This document shows positions 41,223-49,488 of a stretch of DNA of 64,000 nucleotides, in pieces. The notes under the pieces were generated by a model that saw only the letters and a list, made by a program, of their open reading frames with translations, made no database searches and had not been told where the DNA came from. The stretch is from Sedimentibacter sp. MB35-C1 (GTDB lineage: Bacteria > Bacillota > Clostridia > Tissierellales > Sedimentibacteraceae), in assembly GCF_030913635.1 (NCBI RefSeq), contig NZ_CP133188.1:3286001-3350000 (forward strand). Direction: 5' to 3'. A program made the translations under genes and the position numbers. How positions within the stretch are numbered: the stretch's first letter is position 1; every line of letters begins with the position of its first letter.

Positions 41223-41433
41223 TATGTTTCCTCCATATTATTAAAATGTTGATATACTACGTAGATATCTTATTGCATTTCAATTATATCAACCACTTAG
41301 TTTTTTTCAATCTACTATATTAACCTTATTCTATCTAAATCACTCTAATCCATGGTATGTTATTGTAATTCAGCTTAAACTTCTTACATAAATAAAACTA
41401 TATGTACCTTGGAAATTCAATATTTAACAAAAC

Positions 41434-41455
41434 AAAGACACCCTGAGGTGTCTTT
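41434..41455. terminator. Terminator downstream of the heme/cytochrome operon
   Basis: AAAGACACC CTGA GGTGTCTTT is a perfect 9-bp stem followed by T-rich DNA, 28 bases beyond the Staygreen-like stop. It ends the operon read from 46.5 kb. Confidence 0.82.
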
Positions 41456-41482
41456 ATTTGATGGTCTATAAAAATACTGAAC

Positions 41483-41908
41483 TTATTTTAAATAATCGCT
41501 TACATTTCCTCTGTATTCTACAAATTTTTTTGAATCAGAAATATATCTTACATTTACGTTACTTTCTGCGCAGTTATTTTTTAGTATGTAATCCTTATCA
41601 CCGTTAACAATTGCAGTAATTGCTCTTACAATGTGAGATTTGAATTTTTCATATCTTTCTTGTAATGTAAGTAAGCTGTGTTCTGAATATAAATTACATG
41701 TAATTTGGAGTTCAAATTTACAATTTTCTTTAATCCATCTTCCTTCCACTTCGTCTCTGCACTTGCTAAGTCTATCTTTGTCTATTTGGTTGCCTATAAA
41801 TAAAATTCTTTGTCCAGTATAATCCGAATGAGTCAGCGTATATACTCTGTCAGCCATATTTTCATATTCAGCATTAAGCTGATAATCTACTGTCAGTTTG
41901 GTAAGCAT
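41483..41908 (-). CDS. Staygreen-family protein (putative metallo-tetrapyrrole dechelatase)
   Basis: A 141-residue protein. The signature RVYTLTHSDYTGQRILFIG, then CRDEVEGRWIKEN, then the C-terminal VRYISDSKKFVEYRG closely follow plant SGR (RTYTLTHSDIT, RDEVVAEWKK, VYFHSN…VECWG). Plant SGR removes Mg from chlorophyll a; bacterial homologues exist and are known dechelatases in some cases. Here it is the last gene of an operon with a radical-SAM heme synthase and cytochrome c maturation genes, overlapping the S-component-like gene by 16 bases, so the natural substrate is more likely a metalloporphyrin or heme precursor. The substrate is inference. Confidence 0.78.
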   Translation of the reverse strand: MLTKLTVDYQLNAEYENMADRVYTLTHSDYTGQRILFIGNQIDKDRLSKCRDEVEGRWIKENCKFELQITCNLYSEHSLLTLQERYEKFKSHIVRAITAIVNGDKDYILKNNCAESNVNVRYISDSKKFVEYRGNVSDYLK

Positions 41909-42429
41909 TTACTAAGCCTCGTCTGATACAGCTTCATTGCAAAGAATGCTCCTATGGCTCCGGCTCCATAAACTGATACAGCGCTTATAACCACGGCTAC
42001 AGTTCCTCCAAAGCTATACAAGGAACTTTTTATGAAGAAGGTTGTCATTATAAAGGTTGCAATAATTCCGCATACTGAATAAATAGGTGCAAAAATTGCA
42101 ATCTTAGTATCAGATTTAAAATCTCTAAGGATAATACTAATAATTATATCAGCCACAATTCCTCCTGCTGCTATTGAGATTGTTGCAAAGATTGACATTC
42201 TTGCCATCATGAAGCCATACGCAACCGCAAACAAAGATACTGCTACCGGTTTTCTTACTTTGTACAACATCATTGCTATGATAAAACTAAAGAACGGTGC
42301 ATTGATAACACCTCGGGAAAACGGAAGAATTTTATGGAATACTCCAACAACTTTTCCCAAAACCACAGCAATCGCTACACACATTGCAATTGTAGCTAAA
42401 TCTTTTACATTTAACATTTTATATTTCAT
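41893..42429 (-). CDS. ECF-transporter S-component-like membrane protein
   Basis: A 178-residue protein with about six hydrophobic helices (AMCVAIAVVLGKVVGVFH, FFSFIIAMMLY, FATISIAAGGIVADIIIS) and the small-residue-rich pattern of ECF substrate-binding subunits (MptD/HtsT-like). No energising ATPases are adjacent. Its start overlaps the radical-SAM gene by 11 bases and its end overlaps the Staygreen-like gene, so it probably captures a tetrapyrrole precursor or cofactor for this pathway. Substrate is inferred from neighbours. Confidence 0.65.
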   Translation of the reverse strand: MKYKMLNVKDLATIAMCVAIAVVLGKVVGVFHKILPFSRGVINAPFFSFIIAMMLYKVRKPVAVSLFAVAYGFMMARMSIFATISIAAGGIVADIIISIILRDFKSDTKIAIFAPIYSVCGIIATFIMTTFFIKSSLYSFGGTVAVVISAVSVYGAGAIGAFFAMKLYQTRLSKCLPN

Positions 42430-43429
42430 TTACGCCTCCTGATAATAGACAATATGGGTCTTCTTCCAACCAGTCTCCGGTATTGCTGAAAGCTCTTGCT
42501 CTACAGCCTCCACAGATATTTATATATTGGCAATGACCGCATTGTCCTTTATAGTTTTTATAATCTCTTAATTTATTAAAAATTTCATTGTTTTCCCAAA
42601 TATAATCAAATGTATCTTCTCTTATGCTTGCAACCTTTACCGGTGCATAGGGGCATATATGCACGTCTCCGTTAGGCAGTATTGAGCAGTAACTTACACC
42701 TGCAATACATCCTCTGGTAGTATTTTTTAATGACTCAATACCCCTTAACAATGATTCAACCTTATATTGGGGGGCACATGTAGGTTTAACCAGCATGTCA
42801 AGCTCTAAATCCTTATCAATAATTCTATTGATTGCTTTTTTGTATTCTTTAATATCCAACGAAGCTTCCTTTATATTTTTACCTCTTCCTGTGTCAACCA
42901 AAAATAACATGTGACTTGATGCAGCTCCTAAATTTGAAGCAAAATCCGCAATATTTTCTATTTCTTCTAAATTCTGTTTTGTAACAGTACAGTTTAATTG
43001 AACTCTTATCCCTGCTTCTACACAATTATTTACACCTTCTATAGCTTTTTGGAAAGCTGTGTTGGAACCTCTAAACCTATTGTGTTTTTCAGGGTCTAAA
43101 CTGTCTATGCTTATTGCAATGGCGCTTAAGCCGCTACCTTTAAGTTTTTCTGCCTTTTCTTTGTCAATAAGAGTTCCGTTGCTGCCCATAAGTATAGTCA
43201 TGCCTATGGACTTGGCATAGCTTATAAGTTCAAATATATCATCTCTTATCATTGGTTCTCCACCGCTTAAAACTATAACTTTCATTCCGGCTTTAACCAT
43301 TTGGTCCAAGAGTTTTTTTCCTTCATCAGTCGATAGTTCATCATCCATCTTTTCCGGTCCTGATTCCCTGTAACAATGCTTGCAATATAAATTACACTTT
43401 TTTGTTGTATTCCAGGATATATGATTCAT
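42419..43429 (-). CDS. ahbD: AhbD/NirJ-like radical SAM heme-biosynthesis protein
   Basis: A 336-residue radical SAM/SPASM enzyme: cluster motif CNLYCKHCY, glycine motif LSGGEPMIRDD, the AhbD/NirJ block DTGRGKNI, KPTCAPQY, and the C-terminal SPASM ligands GCIAGVSYCSILPNGDV, CGHCQYINICGGCRARAF. AhbD oxidatively decarboxylates Fe-coproporphyrin III to heme b in the siroheme-dependent route; NirJ makes related changes for heme d1. Next to ccsB/resB, heme b supply for cytochrome c is the best reading. AGGAGG-type site upstream. Confidence 0.82.
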   Translation of the reverse strand: MNHISWNTTKKCNLYCKHCYRESGPEKMDDELSTDEGKKLLDQMVKAGMKVIVLSGGEPMIRDDIFELISYAKSIGMTILMGSNGTLIDKEKAEKLKGSGLSAIAISIDSLDPEKHNRFRGSNTAFQKAIEGVNNCVEAGIRVQLNCTVTKQNLEEIENIADFASNLGAASSHMLFLVDTGRGKNIKEASLDIKEYKKAINRIIDKDLELDMLVKPTCAPQYKVESLLRGIESLKNTTRGCIAGVSYCSILPNGDVHICPYAPVKVASIREDTFDYIWENNEIFNKLRDYKNYKGQCGHCQYINICGGCRARAFSNTGDWLEEDPYCLLSGGVNEI

Positions 43430-43508: not shown

Positions 43509-44327
43509 CTATTTATAACTGTGTAGGCCTGGTAGCAATACATTTACACCTATAAAAGTAAATATTACGCATATAAATCCGATTACTGCAAACCATGCTG
43601 CAAGTTTTCCCTTCCAGTTTCTGTTAAATCTAAGATGCAGATATACTGAATATATTAGCCAAGTTATCAGTGACCATGTTTCTTTAGGGTCCCATGCCCA
43701 GAATCTTGACCAAGCATATTTTGCCCAAATAGCACCGGAGACTATTACAACTGTCAACATCATATATCCAAATGCAATAACTCTGTAGCTTAAGTGATCA
43801 CAAGCTTCTTCATCAGGCAAAATTTTACTTTTTACACTTTTCATATTTTTACTGCTAATTAAATACATAATGGACAAACCACATGCAACTGCAAAGGAGC
43901 CATAAGAAATAATTGCAGATCCTACGTGGAATGAAAGCCAATTACTTTGAAGAGCAGGCATTAAGGGTTTTATTTCTTTTGGAAGAACAGATGCATATCC
44001 CATCATTAAAAATGCAAGTGGCATTACAAATGCACCAACTGACGTAAATTTATAGTAAAAATGAATAATCAAATAGCATAAAACTATGCCCCATGTAAAA
44101 CTGCTTGCAAATTCAAACTGATTGCTAAAAGGCAGTCTTCCTGATTCTACTACTCTAAGAATCATTGCCACTGTGTGAACAATAAATCCTACTACTGTTG
44201 CATTCACGGCAAATTTACCAACCTTCTCTTTGCCTCCCACAAGAAAAACGAAAAATCCCAAGGATGCTGCAATATATATATAAAATGCTATGGTAAATGT
44301 TACTTCTTCAAAGAAAACTATATTCAT
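43509..44327 (-). CDS. ccsA: Cytochrome c biogenesis protein CcsA/CcsB (ResC type), heme handling
   Basis: A 272-residue membrane protein with about eight helices and the heme-binding WWD motif WAKYAWSRFWAWDPKETW, flanked by conserved histidines (FHVGSAIISYG, YLHLRFN). In System II cytochrome c maturation this subunit delivers heme to apocytochrome CXXCH sites outside the membrane. Its ATG overlaps the ResB stop by four bases (ATGA). Confidence 0.92.
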   Translation of the reverse strand: MNIVFFEEVTFTIAFYIYIAASLGFFVFLVGGKEKVGKFAVNATVVGFIVHTVAMILRVVESGRLPFSNQFEFASSFTWGIVLCYLIIHFYYKFTSVGAFVMPLAFLMMGYASVLPKEIKPLMPALQSNWLSFHVGSAIISYGSFAVACGLSIMYLISSKNMKSVKSKILPDEEACDHLSYRVIAFGYMMLTVVIVSGAIWAKYAWSRFWAWDPKETWSLITWLIYSVYLHLRFNRNWKGKLAAWFAVIGFICVIFTFIGVNVLLPGLHSYK

Positions 44328-45583
44328 TGTATTTCCCCCTTACATTTATTTTGTTCTTTCAATATTCTTTTGATTTTTATCGTAAATCCCCAAGTATTTT
44401 GTCTTGTTACAGGAATTACAGATTCAGATGAGATTAATATATATTTCGGATAAAAATAAAATGATAAAAGTATTCCCAAGGTCAAAATTATACTTCCCAC
44501 CAATACATAGTAATAACCAAAATCCTGTCTGTATTGTAATCCTGTATATAAAACAGAATCAACAAACTTAATTGTTAAGTCATTGTACTCTATAGGTTCT
44601 CCCGGAGTCACTATATATGAATCCACATAACTTTCTTCATTGTAAAGCGCTACTGCATAAGCGGGATTTTTCATATGCTGAGATAAGGTTATGGGGTTAC
44701 CATATCTATCCATACTAAAGTCAGGGAAAAAACCATATAAAACTATTATAAGATTTTCTGGCTCATAAAAAGCATGAGGATTATCCTTTAATATACTTTC
44801 AAAAAGCACGCTGCCATCTTTATCCTTAATCTGCATATTGCTTGCCCAACCATAATTAGACTGGTAAAAGTACATACCTTTATAGCTAAGAGGATTGTTT
44901 ACCCAAATTTTTTCTTCCTTTAATTTTTGTTCACCTTCATAAACAGTTAATTCGCTGTAGTATTGCTCAATTGAACCGTCTTCTCTAAAGTCCATATAAA
45001 AATCATTTAATTCAAGAGAAAATCCAAATTCTTTAAATTCTTTAATTTCGCCAGGTATTAAGTTTACATATCCTTCATGCACAAACATATTCCCTAAAAC
45101 AGCACCTAAAATTATTACAACAATTCCTAGATGAGTTACTGATGAACCTATATGACCCAAGCTGTGTTTAATTGCATAAATACCATCTTCAGTGTCTACA
45201 ATTTTGAACTTTTTCTTTTTTAGCATTTCCTTAACATTTTCAATATCCATCCCATTCTCATAAAGATTTTCATTGTTTTTTCCACTTTTAGGAACATACG
45301 TATTTTTCATTTTCTTTAATTGAACAGGCAATATTTTCAGCGTACAGCCTACCAAGTTTATTATGAAAATGAATACTATTACTATGTAAATATTCGAACT
45401 GTACACATGGTCAAATTGCAAAGAAACCATAAGACTGCCAAACGTCTTATATTGATGCAAATAAAACTCTATATCCATTCCTTGAGGTATAACTGTACCA
45501 ATTATTGAATATACAGCTATCATCACGAACAAGATAATTCCAAATTTAAGGCTTGTTAAAAAATTGGTAAATTTTTTTAGCAT
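44324..45583 (-). CDS. resB: Cytochrome c biogenesis protein ResB (Ccs1)
   Basis: A 419-residue ResB: early membrane helices (FGIILFVMIAVYSIIGTVIPQG, i.e. IILFVMIAVYSII), an extracytoplasmic domain (about 150-360) with IWVNNPLSYKGMYFYQSNYG, and a final helix VLVGSIILTLGILLSFYFYP. It partners CcsA as the System II synthetase that attaches heme. Presence of both genes implies a c-type cytochrome, and the triheme lipoprotein at 47638 is the obvious client. 26 bases after the AraC gene, same operon. Confidence 0.92.
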   Translation of the reverse strand: MLKKFTNFLTSLKFGIILFVMIAVYSIIGTVIPQGMDIEFYLHQYKTFGSLMVSLQFDHVYSSNIYIVIVFIFIINLVGCTLKILPVQLKKMKNTYVPKSGKNNENLYENGMDIENVKEMLKKKKFKIVDTEDGIYAIKHSLGHIGSSVTHLGIVVIILGAVLGNMFVHEGYVNLIPGEIKEFKEFGFSLELNDFYMDFREDGSIEQYYSELTVYEGEQKLKEEKIWVNNPLSYKGMYFYQSNYGWASNMQIKDKDGSVLFESILKDNPHAFYEPENLIIVLYGFFPDFSMDRYGNPITLSQHMKNPAYAVALYNEESYVDSYIVTPGEPIEYNDLTIKFVDSVLYTGLQYRQDFGYYYVLVGSIILTLGILLSFYFYPKYILISSESVIPVTRQNTWGFTIKIKRILKEQNKCKGEIQ

Positions 45584-45609: not shown

Positions 45610-46488
45610 TTAATTATAAATAGTTTTAAGGGGCTTTTTAAATTTATTGTTATTCTGTATATCACTTAAATACATTTTTGATCTTTTTCTAAACACTTTT
45701 GGGGTAATCCCATATTTTGACTTGAATGTATTATAAAAATTAGTCATATGCTCATAACCACATAGAGAAGCAATCTCACATATAGTTAAATTTGTTTCTT
45801 TTAAAAGCATACATGCATTTTTAAGGCGAATGTCACGTAAAACCTCAGAAAAACTCTTTCCAAGGTTTTTCTTAATAATAGAGGATATGGAATTAGGGTG
45901 ATAATTAAAATGTTTGGCTGTTTCTTTTAAGGTTGCATTTCTATAATTCTCACATAAGTACCCAATAATCAATGAAAACTGACTATTAGATGGTATGTTT
46001 TTTAATGAAGAATTAACTGTATAATTCCTTAACAGAATTACAAAAATACTTGTTAATGCAGCCTTTATAGCTGCTTTATAAGATGTTTTCTTTTGCATAT
46101 TCTCTTTACATATGAAATTGGCAAGTTCTATAACATCCTCTCCACTTTCATAAGAGAAACTAAGATACTCAATACATTCATCAGTATGTTGGCATTCTAC
46201 AAGAAATTCAAAAAGCATATTACAGCTTGTAATCATAGGCATTAATGAACTATATGCAATTGAACGTTCAAGCATTATACATGCAACTACTGTTTTCTCA
46301 CTACAAAATAACCTATGCTTTAATTTTGGTTTTATCATACACACATCCTTTACATTTAAATCTATACTGTCATTTGCTACCTGTATTGTTAATCTTTTAC
46401 CTAAAGGAACATAAAGTGTTACAAAATCATGCTTAACAAATGATTCTTCGCATGTAACAATAAGTAGTCTGGAATTTAGGGTGTCCAT
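45610..46488 (-). CDS. AraC-family regulator
   Basis: A 292-residue regulator with a cupin-like N-terminal sensing domain and a C-terminal AraC double helix-turn-helix (ATLKETAKHFNYHPNSISSI, LTICEIASLCGYEHMTNFYN). The ATG at 46488 has GGAGG eight bases upstream. It is first in the operon leading to resB, ccsA, ahbD and the Staygreen-like gene, and is itself behind a MerR-type promoter, so two regulators appear to act in series. Confidence 0.88.
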   Translation of the reverse strand: MDTLNSRLLIVTCEESFVKHDFVTLYVPLGKRLTIQVANDSIDLNVKDVCMIKPKLKHRLFCSEKTVVACIMLERSIAYSSLMPMITSCNMLFEFLVECQHTDECIEYLSFSYESGEDVIELANFICKENMQKKTSYKAAIKAALTSIFVILLRNYTVNSSLKNIPSNSQFSLIIGYLCENYRNATLKETAKHFNYHPNSISSIIKKNLGKSFSEVLRDIRLKNACMLLKETNLTICEIASLCGYEHMTNFYNTFKSKYGITPKVFRKRSKMYLSDIQNNNKFKKPLKTIYN

Positions 46489-46535
46489 ATGTATAACCTC
46501 CATTTAATATTATTAAAAGTTATTACTTATTTCAT

Positions 46536-47637: not shown

Positions 47638-49488
47638 ATGAACATTCGTAGATTACTTTGTTTTATTATAGTTATTGCAATGGTCTTATCTATAGTAGGC
47701 TGTTCTTCACCATCTAAGGCTCCTGATGAGACAGCTGTTCCCGCATCTGTCCAGATGAAACCAGGTACATACACTGAAACAGTAAAAGGTTTAAATGATA
47801 TGACTGTAGAAGTTGTGCTTTCGGAGACTAAAATAGAATCTATTAAAATAGTAAACCATAATGAAACAGAAGACATCTCAGATAATGCATTAACACAGAT
47901 TCCAGAAAAAATATTAGCAGAACAAAATGTTGAAGTAGATGTGGTATCAGGTGCTACTCTTTCATCAACAGCCATAATTACAGCCGTTAAGCAAGCTATA
48001 GAAAAGGCTGGTGGGGATATGACTAAATTTATGGCAAAACAAGATGAAACTCAATCCGAACCAGAACCTTATCCAGGATACCCTGTCATAGAAGAAATTT
48101 ATAATGATATGGCACAGAGAGCAATTGATTACGCTCCAAAAATAGCGACTCTACCAAACGGAATAAAGGTTCAGCGTACCCCAGATGAATATTTCGCAGG
48201 CGTATATCACAATCCGGGAGAATCAATATCATATAATACATATTATCTTGATGCTGATAATAGGGGATGTAACTCATGTCATGAAAGCTTAGGCAAACAA
48301 TTAAATGATATGACATATCTTCATGTTAACCTTGAAAATCCTTACGGTATGGATACAACAGTTCAACAATGTATTGACTGTCATAGTTACTCGCCAGGAT
48401 ATTTGACAGAAAAATATGCTTTTGGTACTTTAATGCATGGCATACACAAATCCGATGCATTTGAAGGTGACTGTATGACATGCCATAATGCAACTGGCGA
48501 TGGAGAAGGAATGCAGCTTTGGGATTTAGTAAAGCATGATGTTTTAAGAGGAATTGTTCCAATAGCTAATGTTTCAGGTGATTTTTCATATGTACAAGAC
48601 AAAACAGTTACACAGGAAGAAACTTTTAACTTTAACTGGATGTATTACGATGAAGACTATAAGAGAAATGCTGCTGATTTAGCAGATATACCTCTTGACC
48701 CAAAAGTTTTTAATGAATGGAAAATAAAGGTTACAGGACATGTGGAAAATGAGTTCGAAATTAGTCTACCCGATCTTATAGCAGAGGCCCCAAGCGAGAC
48801 TACAACCATGCTTATGCATTGCACTATAAATCCAATGGGAGGACCTTTACTATCAAATTGTGAAATAACCGGTGTTCCTGTTAGTTACTTATTAGAAAAA
48901 GCTGGTGTAAAAGAAGGAGCTACGGTTCTTAATCCGATAGCAAATGATGGATTTTCAATTCCAACATCCATGGAGCATCTTTTAAATCATAATGCTTATA
49001 TAGTGTATGAAATTGATGGAAAGCCACTTGCACAAGTTTTGGGATATCCTGTGCAAATTTGGATTGGTGGAGCTGCCGCTTCAAGTTTTGTTAAACAAGT
49101 TGTAGAACTGAATATTGTAGATGATCCAATTGAAGATTATTATTTTTACAGAGGATGGGAAAGAGAAAACGGTGGATATTATAATAAGCCAAATATAGCT
49201 ATTTGTCAGGTAGCTGAAGGACAGATCATTGAATCTGGTAAACCATTTACATTCGAAGGATTTGCAGATGGTCTTGAACAAAATGTTGTGGCAGTTGAGT
49301 TCTCTATGGACAGAGGGGAAACTTGGACATCATATAGTACAGAAGGTGCAGATATAGAAAGATGGATATATTGGAACTTTGTATTTACTCCACCCGAAAA
49401 AGGTGCATATGTACTTATGGCAAGGGCAGTAACTGATGAAGGCTTAGTTTCAAACGAACCAGTAGAAGTTATGGTTGTTGCAAAATAA
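47638..49488 (+). CDS. Lipoprotein fusing FMN-binding domain, triheme cytochrome c and sulfite-oxidase-type molybdopterin domain
   Basis: A 616-residue surface lipoprotein: signal peptide with lipobox SIVGC (Cys22); FMN-binding domain (about 42-130) with the flavinylation motif VVSGATLSS (Thr107), modified by ApbE in known cases; three CXXCH heme sites at Cys211 (CNSCH), Cys245 (CIDCH) and Cys279 (CMTCH), exactly 34 residues apart; then a molybdopterin domain of the sulfite-oxidase fold (about 355-510, probable Mo-ligand Cys395 in MLMHCTINPMGG) and a C-terminal dimerisation domain (VEFSMDRGETW). It should reduce or oxidise a small substrate outside the cell. AAGGAGG upstream; 97 bases after the MerR gene. 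Confidence 0.9.
   Translation: MNIRRLLCFIIVIAMVLSIVGCSSPSKAPDETAVPASVQMKPGTYTETVKGLNDMTVEVVLSETKIESIKIVNHNETEDISDNALTQIPEKILAEQNVEVDVVSGATLSSTAIITAVKQAIEKAGGDMTKFMAKQDETQSEPEPYPGYPVIEEIYNDMAQRAIDYAPKIATLPNGIKVQRTPDEYFAGVYHNPGESISYNTYYLDADNRGCNSCHESLGKQLNDMTYLHVNLENPYGMDTTVQQCIDCHSYSPGYLTEKYAFGTLMHGIHKSDAFEGDCMTCHNATGDGEGMQLWDLVKHDVLRGIVPIANVSGDFSYVQDKTVTQEETFNFNWMYYDEDYKRNAADLADIPLDPKVFNEWKIKVTGHVENEFEISLPDLIAEAPSETTTMLMHCTINPMGGPLLSNCEITGVPVSYLLEKAGVKEGATVLNPIANDGFSIPTSMEHLLNHNAYIVYEIDGKPLAQVLGYPVQIWIGGAAASSFVKQVVELNIVDDPIEDYYFYRGWERENGGYYNKPNIAICQVAEGQIIESGKPFTFEGFADGLEQNVVAVEFSMDRGETWTSYSTEGADIERWIYWNFVFTPPEKGAYVLMARAVTDEGLVSNEPVEVMVVAK

Follow-up and report, generated by a model that had tools for sequence, protein, structure and literature searches.

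What does a Staygreen (SGR) protein do among heme genes in a bacterium whose order includes the anaerobic Peptoniphilaceae? Bacterial SGR proteins have been proposed as the origin of the plant enzyme with which chlorophyll breakdown begins, and their physiological role is stated as unknown in the accessible part of PMC8531759. Our search of the open-licence literature, which covered titles and the starts of abstracts, gave no paper among the matches listed that connects bacterial SGR with heme or AhbD. The first-pass annotation of the window (the whole 64,000-nucleotide stretch of DNA analysed here) had placed a Staygreen homologue at 41483-41908, overlapping an S-component-like gene and following an AhbD-like heme synthase and CcsA/ResB. 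We found this layout as described. Below, the radical SAM, S-component-like and SGR genes are called the trio.

41430..41459, minus strand: terminator-like hairpin, 23 nt past the SGR stop (-16.7 kcal/mol, z -4.5)
41483..41908, minus strand: SGR homologue, 141 aa, divergent trio type, ATG start (ORF, PF12638, AlphaFold model)
41893..42429, minus strand: ECF S-component-like membrane protein, 178 aa (ORF, AlphaFold model)
42419..43429, minus strand: AhbD-type radical SAM/SPASM enzyme (sequence models, cysteine motif, tree)
43509..44327, minus strand: CcsA/CcsB, cytochrome c biogenesis, system II (TIGR03144)
44324..45583, minus strand: ResB, cytochrome c biogenesis, system II (PF05140)
45610..46503, minus strand: AraC-family regulator heading the run, 26 bp from ResB (ORF, profile)
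47638..49488, plus strand: 616-aa protein with FMN_bind, three CXXCH motifs and a sulfite-oxidase-type molybdopterin domain (domain search)

The first 16 nt of the SGR gene are shared with the 3' end of the S-component-like gene, which in turn shares 11 nt with the radical SAM gene. ResB and CcsA/CcsB make up the pair of cytochrome c biogenesis system II, with ResB matched by PF05140 (202 bits) and CcsA by the equivalog model TIGR03144 (269 vs. a cut-off of 188). One of 200 shuffles folds as well as the hairpin, which is missing from a simple terminator scan, and a promoter scan gave a number close to chance (43 observed vs. 37.3 expected, sd 6.5). The 616-aa protein has an unusual domain combination and is likely a heme c client near the trio.

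Profile, fold and catalytic residues confirmed that the window SGR belongs to the Staygreen family. PF12638 matched with 82.2 bits (E 4.3e-23, curated cut-off 27), aligning residues 4-137 with profile positions 6-145 of 147, and the motifs named in the first-pass annotation are present. A phmmer comparison with solved structures found the Anaerolineae SGR 7y5y at E 2.3e-5, with the runner-up at 0.69. The AlphaFold2 model, built with 50 sequences from the window and the named loci of the survey described below, reached a pLDDT of 89.6 and a pTM of 0.86. In Foldseek, this model matched 7y5y with E 4.3e-13 (TM 0.86/0.80, 26% identity), in agreement with the earlier assignment; this was the only structure at or below 1e-3, and the second best had E 5.3e-3.

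We then compared the active site across the family in an alignment of 50 sequences picked from the window and 80 loci, holding 10 of the 11 SGRs from intact trios. Nine residues are invariant, among them the equivalents of R26, Y28, H32, D34, T36 and D62 of the characterised AbSGR. The window residues D29, D52 and H27 correspond to AbSGR D34, D62 and H32, and all three are invariant in 50/50 sequences. According to the available text of PMC8531759, mutants of AbSGR D34 and D62 lost activity and kept solubility, and the H32 mutant was weaker in activity. Judged by these residues, the window SGR looks catalytically intact. The window genome has two SGR copies, an ordinary one elsewhere that scores 180 bits and the divergent copy of the window, with about 81-82 bits.

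The adjoining radical SAM enzyme is of AhbD type. It scored 409 bits with the NirJ2 model and 348 bits with the AhbD model TIGR04545, both below the curated cut-off of 500; the AhbD-type proteins that adjoin AhbC in the class (n=6) likewise fell below 500 with TIGR04545 (317-362 bits). In a tree of 28 sequences, which took in 9 of the 11 trio radical SAM proteins, these nine form one clade (97/93) within an AhbD clade of 16 rows (96/96), and the AhbC-type proteins are separate (100/100). The naming of AhbC versus AhbD rests on gene order, length and the tree, with AhbA/B alongside in two genomes (G451, G466). All nine trio proteins examined carry CX3CX2C and the full AhbD SPASM motif, a cysteine motif defined for the AhbD of methanogens and sulfate reducers in the part of PMC10452713 available to us. 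The motif is not exclusive, because it also matches two radical SAM proteins other than AhbD (G283, G318). In the reaction catalysed by AhbD, Fe-coproporphyrin III becomes heme (PMC10452713, available part). The trio enzyme, below the equivalog cut-off, is called AhbD-type and is predicted to make heme from the same substrate.

Nine genomes in the class survey have an AhbD-type match above 300 bits: six adjoin AhbC, two belong to trios (G000, the window genome, and G097), and one is G482. Directly after the orphan AhbD-type gene of G482 (L195:8404-12152) comes a binding-protein-dependent ABC importer (PF01497), whose permease and ATPase were assigned by eye. This genome has no SGR, and the arrangement is a second possible porphyrin-salvage set-up. 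An orphan AhbD-type gene next to an importer thus occurs both with and without SGR, and SGR is not a constant requirement of such a set-up.

The middle gene of the trio is called S-component-like from its predicted structure. The S-component-like protein gave no significant Pfam match, and its best model was TIGR04518 (12.3 bits vs. a cut-off of 60). Its AlphaFold model has ECF S-components as the best matches, although the match is modest. The protein belongs to a conserved family, in whose alignment no histidine is invariant. The S-component-like profile found a match in 8 of 391 class genomes, with SGR alongside in two (G000, G097). We rejected the idea that the protein is a partner exclusive to SGR, as 6 of these 8 genomes have no SGR beside it. 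Viewed by eye, the gene lies by a catalase gene in G466 and has no neighbouring heme gene in G440; in G451 it adjoins CcsA, ResB and the cytochrome c552 nitrite reductase NrfA. Both G451 and G466 carry Ahb genes and no SGR. These observations cover five of the six loci without SGR, all except that of G310. For two S-component-like relatives (L084:3200-3622 in G361, L085:4781-5182 in G406), inspection by eye showed a small FMN_bind-like protein in the vicinity, a hint that some members of this transporter family serve other functions or bind other ligands.

We surveyed how often SGR occurs in this setting. PF12638 has matches in 21 of 100 genomes, counting that of the window, and the window SGR as query matched 28 of the 249 genomes of its order, with none above 36% identity besides itself. 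The trio is patchy, because no other genome of the window's genus has a close SGR relative; none of them carries a trio-type SGR. At the ordinary SGR loci of the order, 15 of 19 were examined over about 9 kb on each side where the contig allowed (G006, G007, G011 and G022 were left out, and catalase was outside the query), and matches to the radical SAM, S-component-like, CcsA and ResB proteins were found at 0 of 15.

Seven trio SGRs were scanned against genome contigs, which gave 256 relatives, and the best 80 of these 256 were analysed. The relatives were ranked by similarity to a Peptoniphilus SGR, and trios whose SGR is more distant may have escaped. Eleven genomes have an intact trio, the window's and those of 10 of the best 80 loci. 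Besides the window, it is carried by Peptoniphilus ovalis, P. phoceensis, P. gorbachii, P. timonensis and P. harei, two Anaerococcus, Alkaliphilus sp. NP8 (MAG), Clostridium brassicae and HGW-Firmicutes-7 (MAG). The Peptoniphilaceae contribute seven genomes with an intact trio (five Peptoniphilus, two Anaerococcus) and one with a broken radical SAM gene; a ninth (G188) has just a short degenerate SGR match. At 69 of the 80 loci there is no AhbD-type radical SAM, S-component-like, CcsA, ResB or catalase match in the flanks available (at most 7 kb per side), the exception being a weak radical SAM match on the opposite strand at L127. These 69 of 80 named loci and the 15 of 15 ordinary loci without partners led us to reject the idea that every bacterial SGR is linked to tetrapyrrole genes.

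Three side observations came from this survey. In the Anaerococcus MAG SUG356 (L101:3125-4415), the trio is decaying, with its radical SAM gene split over several frames, a full-length catalase ORF upstream and HemC present. Clostridium brassicae (G622) has three SGRs (C11:5214-5642, C5:115354-115773 and C8:46091-46468; 189, 119 and 89 bits), of which the 89-bit copy is the trio SGR. Ordinary SGRs of some Clostridium (L106:6834-7676, L107:6965-7744, L112:6941-7738, L161:6896-7780) carry an extra C-terminal region of about 100 residues, and these four regions are similar to one another by eye.

In all 11 intact trios, the gene order is radical SAM, S-component-like, SGR, and the last two genes overlap by 1-29 nt when longest-ORF starts are taken. 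The outer neighbours vary by lineage (Peptoniphilaceae, Natronincolaceae, Clostridiaceae, HGW-7, the window's family). In the SGR tree of 50 sequences, the 10 trio SGRs form one side of a branch with support 86/85, which is under the strict threshold; an earlier tree of 23 rows grouped the window with seven Peptoniphilaceae rows (98/98). Both trees are unrooted and have long branches. The data fit a trio that arose once and then spread both vertically and horizontally. Neither of the two outcomes named as refuting in the first-pass annotation occurred: the profile match is strong, and a neighbourhood with a tetrapyrrole gene recurs, in the form of the trio, at 10 named loci. The genes ccsA/resB were found beside the trio in the window alone.

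The genes next to the trio point to users of heme. A catalase gene lies directly upstream in 7 of the 8 Peptoniphilaceae loci (the exception is L099), and the catalase of P. ovalis was matched by PF00199 with 582 bits. Taking intact and broken trios together, catalase or CcsA/ResB adjoins 8 of 12 loci, namely seven of Peptoniphilaceae and the window. L099, L102 and L105 have no match to catalase or CcsA/ResB, and the upstream side of L128 is not visible. The Alkaliphilus locus has a fragment of DsbD_2 type (cytochrome c biogenesis) upstream, and the C. brassicae locus has no such gene. In the flanks available, which reach at most 7 kb from SGR, CcsA/ResB were found at 0 of the 10 named intact loci; the upstream side of HGW-7 is off the contig, which starts 248 bases before the trio radical SAM gene. 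A tie of the trio specifically to CcsA/ResB was rejected, since the window alone has them among 11 intact trios. The client in Peptoniphilaceae is catalase. Consistent with this, P. timonensis JC401, a trio carrier in which we found no HemC, is reported as catalase-positive in the available part of PMC3570796, and such a strain must obtain heme or a precursor, although finished heme could come from a rich or blood medium. Two further trio carriers, P. harei and P. gorbachii, appear as catalase-negative in tables in the parts of PMC10876752 and PMC3764929 available to us.

How heme would be made in these genomes was examined from their pathway genes. HemC is required for de novo tetrapyrroles. 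It was missing in 9 of the 11 intact-trio genomes and present in Anaerococcus AGMB09787 and HGW-Firmicutes-7; in the Alkaliphilus MAG, its absence may be due to incompleteness, as this genome carries cobalamin genes. Ferrochelatase (PF00762) was found in 0 of 11. Eight trio genomes were tested further (the window's and the seven intact Peptoniphilaceae): AhbA/B were found in 0 of 8, as was a second, AhbC-type match (1e-40), and each genome has one AhbD-type match. Seven genomes with AhbD and without SGR (G482, G506, G552, G569, G586, G451, G466) have HemC in 7 of 7, and PF00762 in 0 of 7, as in the trio genomes. No probability is given for this HemC contrast, because the genomes are related in groups.

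The chelatase CbiK was present in 3 of the 11 intact-trio genomes (the window's, Alkaliphilus NP8 and HGW-7) and missing in the other 8, which are all seven Peptoniphilaceae and C. brassicae. Since PF00762 and CbiK are both missing there, SGR is the only chelatase-like protein of Peptoniphilaceae and C. brassicae within the families tested, PF00762 and CbiK. The same cannot be said of the window genome, where the CbiK match led us to reject SGR as the sole chelatase and leaves it as one of the candidates. This CbiK-type chelatase (G000:C1:3021585-3022952; L209:7586-8953, minus strand) was matched by PF06180 with 291 bits and has a C-terminal extension. By eye, its N-terminus is lipoprotein-like, and its gene shares a run with those of a small secreted protein and of an ABC importer that depends on a binding protein. 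It would apparently be an extracytoplasmic chelatase, in a genome without HemC.

Taken together, the adjacent clients (catalase, CcsA/ResB) and the missing HemC, ferrochelatase and Ahb genes make a role of the trio in heme supply or salvage well supported. This part of the first-pass proposal stands; its metal removal or exchange on a porphyrin is a prediction that draws on the protein family and the catalytic residues. We infer which molecule is imported, that the membrane protein imports it, that SGR acts on the ring and which way its metal reaction runs. In the pathway that we propose, the S-component-like protein, together with a shared ECF energizing module, would take up an external coproporphyrin-type ring. 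The SGR homologue would set the central metal right by exchange or loading, giving a ring with iron, and the AhbD-type enzyme would convert Fe-coproporphyrin III to heme b. The heme b would then serve the client encoded nearby: in the window, cytochrome c by way of ResB/CcsA, and in Peptoniphilaceae, catalase. We judge this sequence of import, metal correction by SGR and completion by the AhbD-type enzyme to have a slightly better than even chance of being right. It is weakened by the presence of HemC in two intact-trio genomes, by the CbiK-type chelatase of the window genome, by the arrangement without SGR in G482 and by the catalase-negative P. harei and P. gorbachii. The radical SAM scores below the cut-offs, the non-exclusive SPASM motif, the modest S-component match, the 86/85 branch support and the patchy occurrence of the trio also count against it.

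Elements of such a pathway have precedents in the available parts of the literature. ECF-type heme import is known from LhaSTA (PMC7299338). A cheese-rind bacterium makes coproporphyrin III, which was found as the zinc complex (PMC6104308), and zincmethylphyrins and coproporphyrins are cited as interspecies growth factors (PMC11139205). Iron insertion or metal exchange by SGR was considered because the AhbD substrate has iron, with PF00762 and CbiK both missing in Peptoniphilaceae and C. brassicae. A bolder form of the proposal, which we put forward tentatively and regard as doubtful, is that the trio SGR is an iron chelatase, putting Fe2+ into scavenged coproporphyrin III or swapping zinc for iron. 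It would be a ferrochelatase unrelated to HemH/CpfC, and the Mg-dechelation of plant chlorophyll would be the same chemistry reversed after horizontal transfer.

Other explanations differ mainly in what they ask of SGR. As a tetrapyrrole chaperone, it would carry imported Fe-coproporphyrin III from the membrane to the AhbD-type enzyme with no metal chemistry. The overlap of its start with the transporter gene agrees with such a role, as does the AhbD-type gene beside an ABC importer in G482, an arrangement that points to direct import of an iron-loaded ring where SGR is absent. But the equivalents of D34 and D62, needed for dechelation and not for solubility (PMC8531759, available part), are invariant in 50/50 sequences, and a plain carrier would hardly need them; we consider a chaperone unlikely. 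Should SGR just strip zinc or magnesium from scavenged metalloporphyrins, with iron put in by another chelatase such as CbiK, it would perform the reaction known for its family in the accessible text of PMC8531759. The three CbiK-carrying genomes, the window's included, are in line with this. However, the absence of CbiK from 8 of 11 and of PF00762 from 11 of 11 means that another iron inserter would be needed there, an argument that covers these two chelatase families, and stripping alone seems to us quite unlikely.

The trio might instead consume heme, with SGR stripping the iron from imported heme and the radical SAM enzyme modifying or opening the ring. Anaerobic heme breakdown by radical SAM enzymes exists elsewhere. 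The characterised relatives of SGR are dechelatases (PMC8531759), and a described ECF importer of heme works in iron acquisition (PMC7299338), each according to the part available. However, the trio enzymes have the AhbD motif and fall in the AhbD clade, and heme-using or heme-handling genes adjoin 8 of 12 trio loci, which makes degradation distinctly unlikely. SGR could also be a passenger, its adjacency inherited from one ancestral arrangement and its tie to heme not functional. The tested trio radical SAM proteins form one clade, so the arrangement may have arisen once, and most SGR loci, named or ordinary, are without the partner genes. Yet the overlapping trio persists while its outer neighbours differ between lineages, and the catalytic residues are kept in trio SGRs; we think a passenger very improbable.

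What is new here is the conserved unit of AhbD-type radical SAM, S-component-like and SGR genes; the SGR family itself was already known. The trio offers a testable answer to the question of what bacterial SGR enzymes do, and could explain how Peptoniphilus-like anaerobes build heme enzymes without a heme pathway. The salvage pathway would link such anaerobes to coproporphyrin released by their neighbours. If SGR were indeed an iron chelatase, bacterial Staygreen proteins would gain a physiological role, and the trio would be a three-gene pathway from coproporphyrin to heme in human-associated anaerobic cocci.

The coproporphyrin-dependent heme pathway consists of CpfC and ChdC and has Fe-coproporphyrin III as an intermediate, which it would have in common with the trio route. 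Unlike that pathway, the 11 intact-trio genomes have no member of the ferrochelatase family, and decarboxylation would fall to a radical SAM enzyme. The trio shares the AhbD cysteine motif and clade with the siroheme-dependent pathway (AhbA/B, AhbC, AhbD). In contrast to it, AhbA/B and AhbC-type genes are found in 0 of 8 trio genomes and HemC is missing in 9 of 11, with the S-component-like and SGR genes in their place. LhaSTA, the ECF heme importer of Staphylococcus lugdunensis, has an S-component membrane protein tied to heme, as described in the available part of PMC7299338, to which the S-component-like protein of the trio would correspond. Spectra suggested histidine ligation for LhaS in that text, whereas the trio family is without an invariant histidine and is linked to AhbD-type and SGR genes. 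Finally, the window SGR resembles AbSGR-h (7y5y) and the plant STAY-GREEN Mg-dechelatase in Pfam family, fold (TM 0.86) and the invariant equivalents of the six AbSGR residues named above, but it differs from AbSGR-h in its low identity (26%), its position on the trio-linked branch (86/85) and its AhbD-type and S-component-like neighbours.
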